The position numbers and the translations under genes are program-made. The notes under the pieces were generated by a model. The model saw nothing but the letters and a program-made list of their open reading frames with translations, was not told the origin of the DNA and did not search any database. From Acetobacter vaccinii (GTDB taxonomy: Bacteria; Pseudomonadota; Alphaproteobacteria; Acetobacterales; Acetobacteraceae), in assembly GCF_008365315.1 (NCBI RefSeq), contig NZ_CP043506.1:62001-126000 (forward strand): a DNA stretch of 64,000 nt, written 5' to 3'. Shown here piece after piece: positions 25,865-44,477 of this stretch; position 1 is the stretch's first letter; every line of letters starts with the position of its first letter.

Positions 25865-26956
25865 ATGAACACCCCTACCCTGTGGCAACAGCTTCCGGCC
25901 AGTGGGCGGCTGTTTTTGCGCTTCTGGGGGGGCGGCCTGGGGGCCGCCGCCATTCTTGCTCTCAGCCTTCAGGTCATGGGGCCACCCCGGCATGATCTGG
26001 AAGGGCAGGATATTGATGTCACCGGCAACAACCCGGCCGACAAGTCCGCCCGCACTGGTATTCTCCCCCCGCAGACAGCCCTGCTGGCCCGCAAGGATGG
26101 GCCAGGGGGCTATCCGCTGCCTGTACGTGGTCCTCATGGCCAGACGGCACGGCGCGCCTATGCCGCCCCTGCTGTTGACGTGCCACCCGGCACCCCCATG
26201 GTCGCCCTGCTGCTGGACGGCATCACTCAGGCAGACAGCCTGAGTGATGATGCCCTGACATCCCTCCCCGGCCCGATTTCCATTGCGCTGTCCTCTGGCA
26301 CCACCGGGCTGGACACCATTGCCACCCAGGCCCGCCAGCACCAGCACGAAACCTTTATCACCCTGCCTGTGCAGGCGCAGGACAGTAAGGACCCAGCCAC
26401 CAAGGCGCTGACCCTGCTGCACTCCCCCCAGCAGAACATGGACCTGCTGACAAACACCCTATCCAGCCTGGAAGGCTATGTCGGCGTTGCCAGCACACCT
26501 GTCGGTGGCGATGACACACCCTTTACGACCTCGGAAGGGTTCCGGCCGATTTTGGAAAGCATTGATAGCCACGGCCTGCTGTACCTTGATGGCACACCCG
26601 GCACGCCTGTCACCGGGCCGGGCGTGCTGGGTCAGGTGGACGTGCGCGTTAATGCGGATACGGATATTGTGGCCATCGATATCCAGCTTCTCAAACTCCA
26701 GCAGCTTGCCCGCCAGAATGGCCGGGCCATTGGCGTTATCGGGCCGCTGCGCCCTGTCGCCCTGGCCTGCCTGCGGGCCTGGATCGCGCATTTGAAGGAT
26801 GTTGGCATTGCCCTTGTCCCCGTCAGCCAGATTGTGCTGCCAGTGGACCAGCCAGCCAGCACCCCTGCCGTTGCGGCAGGCCCGATGCGCATCAACCTGG
26901 CCAGCCCCCCTCCTCGTGGCGGCCAATTCTCACCCATTGCAGGACCACAGCATTGA
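25865..26956 (+). CDS. Divergent polysaccharide deacetylase family protein
   Basis: The 363-residue product has a short cytoplasmic start, one membrane helix (about 22-39) and a periplasmic domain of the YibQ-like divergent polysaccharide deacetylase family (PMVALLLDGI, ISIALSSGTTGLDTIATQA, TFITLPVQAQ, FRPILESIDSHGLLYLDG). The usual Asp-Asp pair appears as Leu-Asp-Gly, and the HLPM histidine is replaced by Thr, so metal-dependent activity may be lost. It follows ctpA by 20 bases and overlaps rppH by 4 bases, so the run is probably one operon. A cell-envelope role is likely; the substrate is unknown. Confidence 0.82.
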   Translation: MNTPTLWQQLPASGRLFLRFWGGGLGAAAILALSLQVMGPPRHDLEGQDIDVTGNNPADKSARTGILPPQTALLARKDGPGGYPLPVRGPHGQTARRAYAAPAVDVPPGTPMVALLLDGITQADSLSDDALTSLPGPISIALSSGTTGLDTIATQARQHQHETFITLPVQAQDSKDPATKALTLLHSPQQNMDLLTNTLSSLEGYVGVASTPVGGDDTPFTTSEGFRPILESIDSHGLLYLDGTPGTPVTGPGVLGQVDVRVNADTDIVAIDIQLLKLQQLARQNGRAIGVIGPLRPVALACLRAWIAHLKDVGIALVPVSQIVLPVDQPASTPAVAAGPMRINLASPPPRGGQFSPIAGPQH

Positions 26957-42316: not shown

Positions 42317-43420
42317 TCAGCCCGCAGCAGCGGCGCGCAGGGTTTCCTGCCGCAGGACATCGAGCGGATGCAGTGCGCCTTCCCGCTCAAAATGCCAGAA
42401 TGTCCAGCCATTGCAGGACGGCGCATTGGTCAGCACAGCCCCCATTTTATGAATGGACCCACGCTGCCCGGCGCAGACGAGAGAACCATCGGGCGCTACC
42501 ACAGCCTGCACGCGGCGCTTTTTGTCATACACGACCGTGCCAGCGACAATAACACCCTGCTCCACCAGGCTCCCAAAAGGCACACGGGGGGCCTCACGCT
42601 TGTCCTGTGTGGTCCGCACGGCTTCTTCCGTCATCGGCACTTCACGCGCCACGCGAGCCATGGCGGCCTCAACGTAGTCGGGATGGCGCTCAATCCCGAC
42701 AAAATGGCGGCGCAGACGGCGGGCCATGGCCGCAGTCGTACCCGACCCCGAGAACGGGTCCAGCACGACATCATTCACCGTAGTCGAGGCCAGCAGAACG
42801 CGATGCAGAAGGCTTTCGGGCTTCTGCGTCGGGTGCAGTTTCAGTCCATGCTCATTGCGCAGGCGCTCGTTGCCTGTGCACAGGGGCAGGTACCAGTCCG
42901 AGCGCATCTGCACATCATCGTTCAGAGCTTTCATGGCCTGATAGTTAAAGCGATAGCGGCTGTCCGGCCCACGGGCTGCCCAGATCAGGGTTTCATGCGC
43001 GTTGGTAAAGCGCCGCCCCCGGAAGTTGGGCATGGGGTTGGACTTACGCCAGACAATATCGTTCAAAATCCAGAACCCGAGGTCCTGCAGGATCGCGCCC
43101 AGACGGTAGATATTGTGGTAAGAGCCGATCACCCAGATTGTGCCGTCCTTATGCAGCAGGCGGCGGGCCTCTGACAGCCAGGAACGGGTGAAGCGGTCAT
43201 ACTCCTCGAGATCGGAGAACTTGTCCCAATCGTCATCCACACCATCGACAAGGCTGTCGTCGGGCCGGCGCAATTCACCACGGAGCTGGAGGTTATAGGG
43301 CGGGTCTGCGAAAATGCAGTCCACGGAGCCTGTGGGCAGACCGCGCATGACATCAACACACTCACCACGCAGAATCTGGTCGAGCGGAAGCTCCATGGAA
43401 ACCGATTTCGCGCCATTCAT
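42317..43420 (-). CDS. ccrM: CcrM-type adenine methyltransferase (GANTC)
   Basis: The 367-residue beta-class N6-adenine methylase has the catalytic DPPY (about 39-42, [14 protein letters not shown]), HPTQKP (196-201) and the S-adenosylmethionine site DPFSGSGTT (221-229). It also carries the C-terminal CcrM extension ([31 protein letters not shown]), which suits GANTC recognition and cell-cycle control of the chromosome. Length matches Caulobacter CcrM (358). The ATG at 43420 overlaps the rnhB stop as ATGA. Its leader region carries clustered GANTC sites. Confidence 0.95.
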
Positions 43421-44046
43421 GCCTGCTTCTCCGTCTGTCCGGCCGCTACCTGCCTGCGCACCGTGCCAAATGTTTTCCTGTGATGGGGGGAAATACCCGC
43501 AGCCCCAAGGGCCTGCCGGTGTGCTGCCGTGCCGTAGCCCGCATTGCGCTGCCAGTCGTAGTCCGGCCAACGGGCACCCAGGCGGGCCATAATGCGGTCC
43601 CGCACGACCTTGGCGACAATGGATGCCGCTGCAATGGACAGGCTAAGCCCGTCCCCGCCGACAATGGCCTGTGCGCTACACCCAAAGGCGGGCAGCTTGT
43701 TGCCGTCCACCAGCACATGGTCGGGCAGACGGGGCAGCCGTGCCACCGCCCGCTGCATGGCCAGATGGGCGGCGTTATGGATGTTCAGCGCATCCACTTC
43801 CTGCGTGGATGCCGCACCAATGCCAATTTCCACCCCTGCGACTGATGGCAGGCGTGCGGCAATGGCCTCGCGCACGGCGGGCTTGAGTTTTTTGGAATCA
43901 TCCATAATGGCGGCGAGGTCATCTGGCACGCCGGCCGAGAACACCACAGCCGCTGCCACAACGGGGCCGGCCAGCGGGCCACGGCCCACTTCGTCCACCC
44001 CGGCGACCCGTCCGCCATGGTTCTGTTCTCGCGTAAAATCCGGCAT
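43417..44046 (-). CDS. rnhB: Ribonuclease HII
   Basis: The 209-residue enzyme cuts RNA in RNA-DNA hybrids and removes single ribonucleotides from DNA. Motifs are [15 protein letters not shown] with Asp 18 and Glu 19, [14 protein letters not shown] with Asp 114, and [12 protein letters not shown], so the active site is complete. It is the first gene of a two-gene operon with ccrM, sharing a 4-base overlap. GAGGGG stands just before the ATG. Confidence 0.96.
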
Positions 44047-44071
44047 TGCCCCTCTTTCCGTCCATTTTGAA

Positions 44072-44112
44072 CGACTCGGCTAAAACAGCCGAGTCGCTCA
44101 TTTGCGACTCGC
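44072..44112 (-). promoter_or_regulatory. rnhB-ccrM leader with GANTC cluster and mutually exclusive hairpins
   Basis: Three GANTC sites (44073, 44091, 44106) fall within 38 bases. CGACTCGGCT (44072-44081) pairs perfectly with AGCCGAGTCG (44087-44096), while CGAGTCGC (44090-44097) pairs perfectly with GCGACTCG (44105-44112). Both stems use the middle segment, so only one can form. The region lies 26-66 bases before the rnhB start. A fourth site is at 44150. Confidence 0.6.
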
Positions 44113-44131
44113 AGGGACAGGAGAAGCATTT

Positions 44132-44163
44132 TTTTACCGGGATATGCAAGAGTCCCGGTAAAA
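44132..44163. repeat. Perfect 11-base inverted repeat
   Basis: TTTTACCGGGA (44132-44142) and TCCCGGTAAAA (44153-44163) enclose a 10-base loop, which begins the GANTC at 44150. It lies just after the CsbD-like gene. The T-rich side is upstream on both strands, opposite to a normal terminator, so it may be an operator or an RNA structure. Confidence 0.6.
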
Positions 44164-44171
44164 TGATTTTG

Positions 44172-44477
44172 TCAGGAACGCTTGCGACGGGGGAAAAGCA
44201 GCCAGCCCAGCGCCAGGCTAAGCCCGGAAACCAGCCCTACGGACAGCAGGGGCTTGTCACGCACGAAAGTAACAATTTTTTCCACCGTGCTTTCGCCTTC
44301 CTCATACAGATCAGCGAAATCCTGCTGCATATGGCCAGCAAACTGGTCAAACTTGCCTTCTGCCTGCAGGCCGATGTCCCCTGTCAGGCCGCCTACTGCG
44401 TCCTTGACATGTCCTTTGACATCCTTGGCCACGCCCTGAATTTCGTTTTCAGCGTTCTTGATCTTGTCGTCAGTCAT
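44172..44477 (-). CDS. CsbD/DUF883-like stress protein
   Basis: The 101-residue protein combines a CsbD-like N-terminus (KIKNAENEIQGVAKDVKGHVK, GGLTGDIGLQAEGKFDQFAG) with a C-terminal membrane helix (LLSVGLVSGLSLALGWLLF) ending in a basic anchor, as in DUF883/YqjD proteins. Such proteins rise under general stress and may tether ribosomes or coat the membrane. AAAGGA precedes the ATG. Transcribed alone, divergent from the MFS gene. Confidence 0.85.
   Translation of the reverse strand: MTDDKIKNAENEIQGVAKDVKGHVKDAVGGLTGDIGLQAEGKFDQFAGHMQQDFADLYEEGESTVEKIVTFVRDKPLLSVGLVSGLSLALGWLLFPRRKRS

Follow-up and report, generated by a model that had tools for sequence, protein, structure and literature searches.

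The locus

The minus strand of the window (the whole stretch analysed, 64,000 nucleotides, from a genome of 3.08 Mb that has Acetobacter species as its closest named relatives) carries, in order, csbD (44477-44172), a 125-bp gap, rnhB (44046-43417) and ccrM (43420-42317). The upstream neighbor csbD (44172..44477) encodes a CsbD domain protein (Pfam PF05532, E 1.4e-15), and rnhB (43417..44046) encodes ribonuclease HII (Pfam PF01351, E 1.2e-41). The product of ccrM (42317..43420) is a GANTC methylase with a RAMA domain (Pfam) and matches the solved structure of Caulobacter CcrM over residues 9-356 (PDB 6pbd, E 5.8e-145). Four GANTC sites lie within 82 bp inside the gap between csbD and rnhB-ccrM. 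The stop codon of rnhB and the start codon of ccrM overlap as ATGA (43417-43420), an arrangement that is often a sign of coupled translation.

Read along the sense (minus) strand, the four sites are site I (44150..44154), site A (44106..44110), site B (44091..44095) and site C (44073..44077). Their first positions (44073, 44091, 44106 and 44150) are exactly those given in the initial annotation, which had also correctly placed them ahead of rnhB-ccrM and recognised a methylase of this very site in the CcrM-like product. The segments around sites A, B and C form two hairpin stems, A-B and B-C, with segment B common to both, again as annotated.

The GANTC cluster against the genomic background

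The annotation had set the cluster against a chance expectation of about one site per 256 bases. The excess holds, and the background figure does not: GANTC occurs 397 times in a 400-kb sample of the same genome, or 0.99 per kb, and is the rarest of eight like palindromes. In the window, it is depleted (64 occurrences versus a shuffle mean of 155), so that the one-in-256 background understates the contrast. Outside the cluster, the window has at most two GANTC per 120 bp, and nowhere in the 400 kb sampled from the genome do three or more fall within 86 bp. Four GANTC in 82 bp have a Poisson estimate of 1.7e-6, which treats the sites as independent, whereas a GANTC in one arm of a stem entails a GANTC in the other. 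This background fits the pattern described, in the available text of PMC3973325, for alphaproteobacteria with CcrM, where GANTC is rare genome-wide and over-represented between genes.

Conservation of the sites

The leaders derive from named contigs, from genomes with the same genus label and, for other Acetobacteraceae genera, from 40 ccrM-upstream stretches hand-picked among the matches listed. An rnhB match was present in 34 of these 40 stretches (missing in L169, L171, L172, L178, L179 and L180), with the start codon unplaced in four of the 34. Leaders with identical 120-bp sequences were reduced to one, and palindromes were then counted in the 130-bp segment preceding rnhB. The Acetobacter group, with 48 distinct leaders, has 218 GANTC, versus 7, 5, 5, 13, 0, 9 and 18 occurrences of the seven control palindromes, and the 34 leaders from other Acetobacteraceae genera contain 87, versus 4-20 per control palindrome. 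At 64 more distant loci, mostly from alphaproteobacteria and including Acetobacteraceae other than acetic acid bacteria (Acidocella, Acidiphilium), the excess was not found (18 GANTC versus 9-24 per control palindrome). Because rnhB adjoins ccrM in 39 of these 64 loci, it is the cluster, and not the gene pair, that is peculiar to Acetobacter's side of the family.

The sites are kept in the Acetobacter group, specifically among like palindromes: at least four GANTC are present in 44 of the 48 leaders, the exceptions being L013 and L015 (from genomes of 1.5 and 1.7 Mb), L146 (zero GANTC) and L147 (two GANTC). At least three GANTC occur in 19 of the 34 other-genus loci. Across 33 aligned leaders, CGACTCG at site B and CGAGTC at site C are invariant, whereas site I is invariant except for its centre (GAGTC in L033, L043 and L046). 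Site A is GANTC in all 33, including L016 and L017, in which it has another centre (GAATC), so that its pairing with B is broken and GANTC is kept. Outside this alignment pattern, the hairpin arms of L151 read GAATC/GATTC, and L152 and L160 keep three GANTC with stem B-C absent. Selection targets GANTC itself, beyond pairing.

Covariation tests of hairpins A-B and B-C

The 142-nt sense strand folds with a z of -6.2. Folded in isolation, the B-C piece has 14 pairs at -23.3 kcal/mol and the A-B piece eight pairs at -14.8 kcal/mol. The B-C core (44072..44096, minus strand) has perfect 10-bp arms and covaries among relatives. In the 32 distinct rows of the 33 aligned leaders used for pairing and swap analysis, 88.4% of B-C cells are paired and 32 are double-change cells, versus 16.1 in shuffled alignments (0/500) and well above slid versions, by swap and shuffle statistics that ignore phylogeny. 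On two of five measures, B-C is not set apart (double-change pairs, 56/500; further pair types, 303/500). The non-Watson-Crick cells on the sense strand comprise 33 G-U, 5 A-C and 47 others, cells that are not independent events, and the G-U bias points to pairing in the sense RNA more than to a cruciform or dyad in DNA.

Stem A-B behaves otherwise. Outside a GANTC core that hardly varies, it shows no covariation. Swapped arms paired just as well in 115 of 2000 trials, so that co-evolution of the arms is not clear, and the complementarity of A-B follows from the repetition of a near-palindrome. The switch between two mutually exclusive stems that the annotation had envisaged thus loses one of its partners, since A-B lacks covariation, pairs no better than many swaps and is broken in L016 and L017; the comparison with relatives, which the annotation had named as a check, favored the sites and stem B-C. 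We therefore rejected the switch as the main reading, although the RNAalifold consensus of the full 33-leader alignment contained A-B in place of B-C, with a covariation term of just -0.4.

Three further candidates were set aside. An intrinsic attenuator at B-C was rejected because no T run follows the stem. Hairpin I (44132..44163, minus strand), a 12-pair inverted repeat after csbD that contains site I and overlaps the presumed promoter, was dismissed as a covarying RNA element, its covariation counts being weak and improving when shifted by one column. At the same place, L016-L018 have an ordinary terminator after csbD; in the window, no T run follows hairpin I on the csbD strand, so that csbD may read through into rnhB. 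Action of CcrM on the hairpin RNA was set aside in view of the inactivity of CcrM on single-stranded RNA reported in the available text of PMC6787082.

A helix that includes the rnhB Shine-Dalgarno region

Helix P1 pairs a pyrimidine tract (44115..44128, minus strand; the 5' arm) with the Shine-Dalgarno region of rnhB (44047..44063, minus strand; the 3' arm) in a duplex of -18.5 kcal/mol. Among the 32 distinct leaders, the mean energy of P1 is -16.5 kcal/mol for a leader's own arms and -13.4 kcal/mol for swapped arms, with none of 2000 swaps as good, and column counts give 22 double-change cells versus 15.0 in shuffles (2/500). P1 does not stand apart from shuffles on the same two of five measures as B-C (double-change pairs, 196/500; further pair types, 482/500), and the statistics for P1 likewise ignore phylogeny. 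RNAalifold run on 21 chosen leaders recovered, unprompted, five tract:Shine-Dalgarno pairs together with a 14-pair B-C. These 21 of the 33 leaders make up alignment A2, the basis of both the RNAalifold consensus and covariance model R1, from which near-duplicates (L034, L036, L040, L045, L052, L059 and L011) and divergent or insertion-bearing leaders (L018, L019, L042, L047 and L056) were left out, so that the consensus fold and R1 reflect this selection of leaders.

P1 is short in L039, L041, L043, L046 and L051, and the duplex is nearly absent in L018. The openness of the Shine-Dalgarno region is 0.23 in real leaders versus 0.36 when the 5' part is shuffled; across 45 loci (a set without L013, L015 and the window's own leader), the shuffled control exceeds the real leader in openness at 36 and falls below it at nine. 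In three of these nine (L005, L042 and L056), the tract is cut off by a 12-base insertion. Beyond the group, the own versus swapped comparison is marginal in 16 other genera (82/2000) and gives 150/2000 at 54 outgroup loci; because of these two values, P1 is to be regarded as unproven outside the Acetobacter group. When the 16-genera set is combined with 11 group leaders, none of 2000 swaps is as good.

The covariance model of the 90-nt leader, applied with default-strict filters, recognised the leader in 44 of the 49 group genomes, always beside the rnhB start; its remaining hits in group genomes read those places on the opposite strand. In 200 genomes of the family, it gave three hits, all in the Acetobacter group. 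A search of Rfam 15 (801 bases) yielded no family match, the best of two hits scoring 20.1 bits against a gathering threshold of 90, and we found no recognisable earlier report of the co-varying leader RNA in the open-licence literature. In the Acetobacter group, a covarying helix thus includes the rnhB Shine-Dalgarno region, weakly so in some clades. A leader RNA that would occlude the rnhB ribosome-binding site and enclose the GANTC hairpin is, judging from these folds, a better-supported RNA reading than the two-stem switch.

Leaders L146 and L147 come from genomes G055 and G056, which have the same genus label. Without the GANTC stem, both still fold the tract:Shine-Dalgarno helix and an inner hairpin; their genomes retain rnhB, and ccrM is retained in at least G056. 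With GANTC lost and the fold kept, they are natural test cases for separating the DNA and RNA layers.

Presumed promoter and GcrA motif

Three blocks are conserved before site A: GACTCTTGCGC, an A/T-rich block and the pyrimidine tract. From these blocks, we infer a promoter at 44128..44156 (minus strand; GGGACT, 17 bp, AAAAAT), with a presumed -35 overlapping site I and a presumed start near the tract, which would place sites A, B and C within the leader. Their order downstream of the presumed promoter is conserved. A start some 7 bases past AAAAAT would exclude the outer pairs of P1 from the RNA. A consensus promoter scan found no promoter at the leader; the promoters of Gluconobacter are lax, according to the available text of PMC5756330. 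In other genera, the place of the presumed -35 is taken by TTGACTCA in L166, L175 and L182 and by TTGACA in L152 and L160. The TTGACTCA of the first three is a -35-like element with a GANTC inside. We also considered GANTCTTGCG as a genome-wide promoter class and discarded it (six matches versus 12 for the reversed control).

The genome encodes GcrA (PF07750, E 1.1e-30, above the cut-off). The motif for activation by GcrA is given as YGAKTCG, with YGAKTCK also printed, in the available text of PMC7987155. YGAKTCG is fitted by three of the four cluster sites, versus three of the 60 other sites in the window and 24 of the 397 in the genome sample; the misfit is site I, and site A reads GGAGTCG in many relatives and there does not fit either. 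The available text of PMC4287350 gives TTAA-N7-TTAA as a CtrA-type promoter element, and TTAA is absent from the 125-bp gap. With the GcrA motif at three of the four sites and a GcrA gene in the genome, the methylation-sensing autoregulation of ccrM put forward in the initial annotation is plausible.

A possible two-layer control region

Computation on the leaders gives selection on the sites, co-variation of B-C and P1 in the Acetobacter group, and a position beside rnhB-ccrM. We give roughly even chances to the reading that the gap is a two-layer control region of the rnhB-ccrM operon, combining a DNA methylation cluster with a Shine-Dalgarno-occluding leader RNA, through which CcrM may regulate its own production both in transcription and in translation. 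For the DNA layer, the cluster of CcrM targets kept throughout the lineage, with one at the presumed -35 and three past the presumed start, would be hemimethylated after passage of the replication fork and fully methylated once CcrM has acted. The methylation state would alter promoter output, most likely via GcrA, and ccrM transcription would drop once the work of CcrM is done. In the RNA layer, the tract and the rnhB Shine-Dalgarno region would form P1 around the GANTC-bearing B-C hairpin; P1 would restrain translation of rnhB and, via the ATGA overlap, also that of ccrM. The start site, binding by GcrA, the direction of the methylation effect and the effect on translation are steps that we infer.

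Rather unlikely, in our estimate, is a bolder form in which the palindromes are dual-use, reporting replication and methylation at the ccrM promoter as DNA and forming the hairpin inside the occluding helix as RNA, and so couple methylation to both transcription and translation. If this were true, the choice of start would possibly decide whether the transcript has the anti-Shine-Dalgarno tract.

The cluster could act as DNA only, through methylation and GcrA, with the stems a by-product of tandem near-palindromes and RNA pairing without a role. GANTC does span genera further than any single stem, as in L152 and L160 with three sites and no B-C, and the repeated near-palindrome fully accounts for the A-B complementarity. 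However, B-C pairs beyond the GANTC core co-vary, B-C mismatches lean to sense-strand G-U, and P1 co-varies though free of GANTC sites, which leaves this account doubtful, if credible. Conversely, the region could be a structured 5' UTR in which GANTC is kept through the stem and methylation has no regulatory role, as L147 and L146 might indicate, in which the tract:Shine-Dalgarno helix and inner hairpin outlast most or all GANTC. We hold this to be improbable, given that sites I and A stay GANTC despite changed centres or broken pairing, that L152 and L160 have GANTC triplets and no stem, and that GANTC exceeds like palindromes.

It is also quite improbable that the cluster affects something besides ccrM output, whether through a hemimethylation-dependent replication or nucleoid protein or through lasting under-methylation behind a bound protein. 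Locally unmethylated GANTC are described for Brevundimonas and Caulobacter in the available text of PMC7987155, but here the cluster lies directly ahead of the operon of its own methylase, and the more distant loci lack it before rnhB. Very unlikely is control of the operon by alternative A-B and B-C RNA states, for instance by attenuation. Both stems exist, A-B followed by GCTGTTTTAG was flagged as terminator-like, and RNAalifold picked A-B on the 33 leaders. Against this, A-B is not co-selected and is broken in L016 and L017, the T-rich loop is lost in L014 and L016-L019, and B-C exceeds A-B in stability by 8.5 kcal/mol. Furthermore, transcription reaches the T run before segment C, and B-C presumably could therefore not serve as an antiterminator of A-B.

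Comparison with known systems

To our knowledge, the tie of ccrM expression to replication has been little explored outside Caulobacter. The promoter of Caulobacter ccrM itself, in work attributed to Stephens et al. 1995, reportedly has two methylation sites 3' of the promoter, and methylation was proposed to influence its shut-off. It appears to be the closest known case, with GANTC likewise at or after the promoter, here a presumed one, of the methylase gene. Unlike Caulobacter ccrM, the locus described here has at least four sites packed into some 80 bp and retained in many genera, rnhB as the first gene of the operon, a co-varying leader RNA, and a 125-bp gap without the TTAA half-site of CtrA. 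Such a dense cluster, present in many genera of the family and without excess at the 64 more distant loci, is a compact natural construct for probing methylation feedback, to which the leader RNA would bring a post-transcriptional layer.

The methylation-sensing GcrA-CcrM promoters, as described in the available text of PMC7987155 and PMC4287350, resemble this locus in having YGAKTCG sites near the promoter, here presumed, and in the presence of an encoded GcrA. They differ in that here site I, at the presumed -35, misfits the motif, and that A, B and C follow the presumed start. Another gene in the CcrM/GcrA circuit with closely spaced GANTC is Agrobacterium gcrA, whose promoter has 6 GANTC in 250 bp and is repressed by CcrM, according to the available text of PMC11514494. 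The gene concerned here is another one, and the gcrA of this genome has no GANTC in the 600 bp before it (L193). As in 5' UTRs that occlude ribosome-binding sites, the Shine-Dalgarno region has a pairing partner in an upstream tract. Unlike in those, the same segment carries DNA methylation sites, no Rfam family is matched, and no conserved core is seen apart from GANTC.

Additional observations

The pairing of genes for RNase HII and the methylase recurs in distant loci; the available text of PMC9973331 brings up RNA-DNA hybrids as something that may link RNase HII to a methylase. Elsewhere in the window, at 26222, 55511, 58936 and 60536, lie further perfect inverted repeats, each arm at least 10 bases long, which are perhaps terminators.
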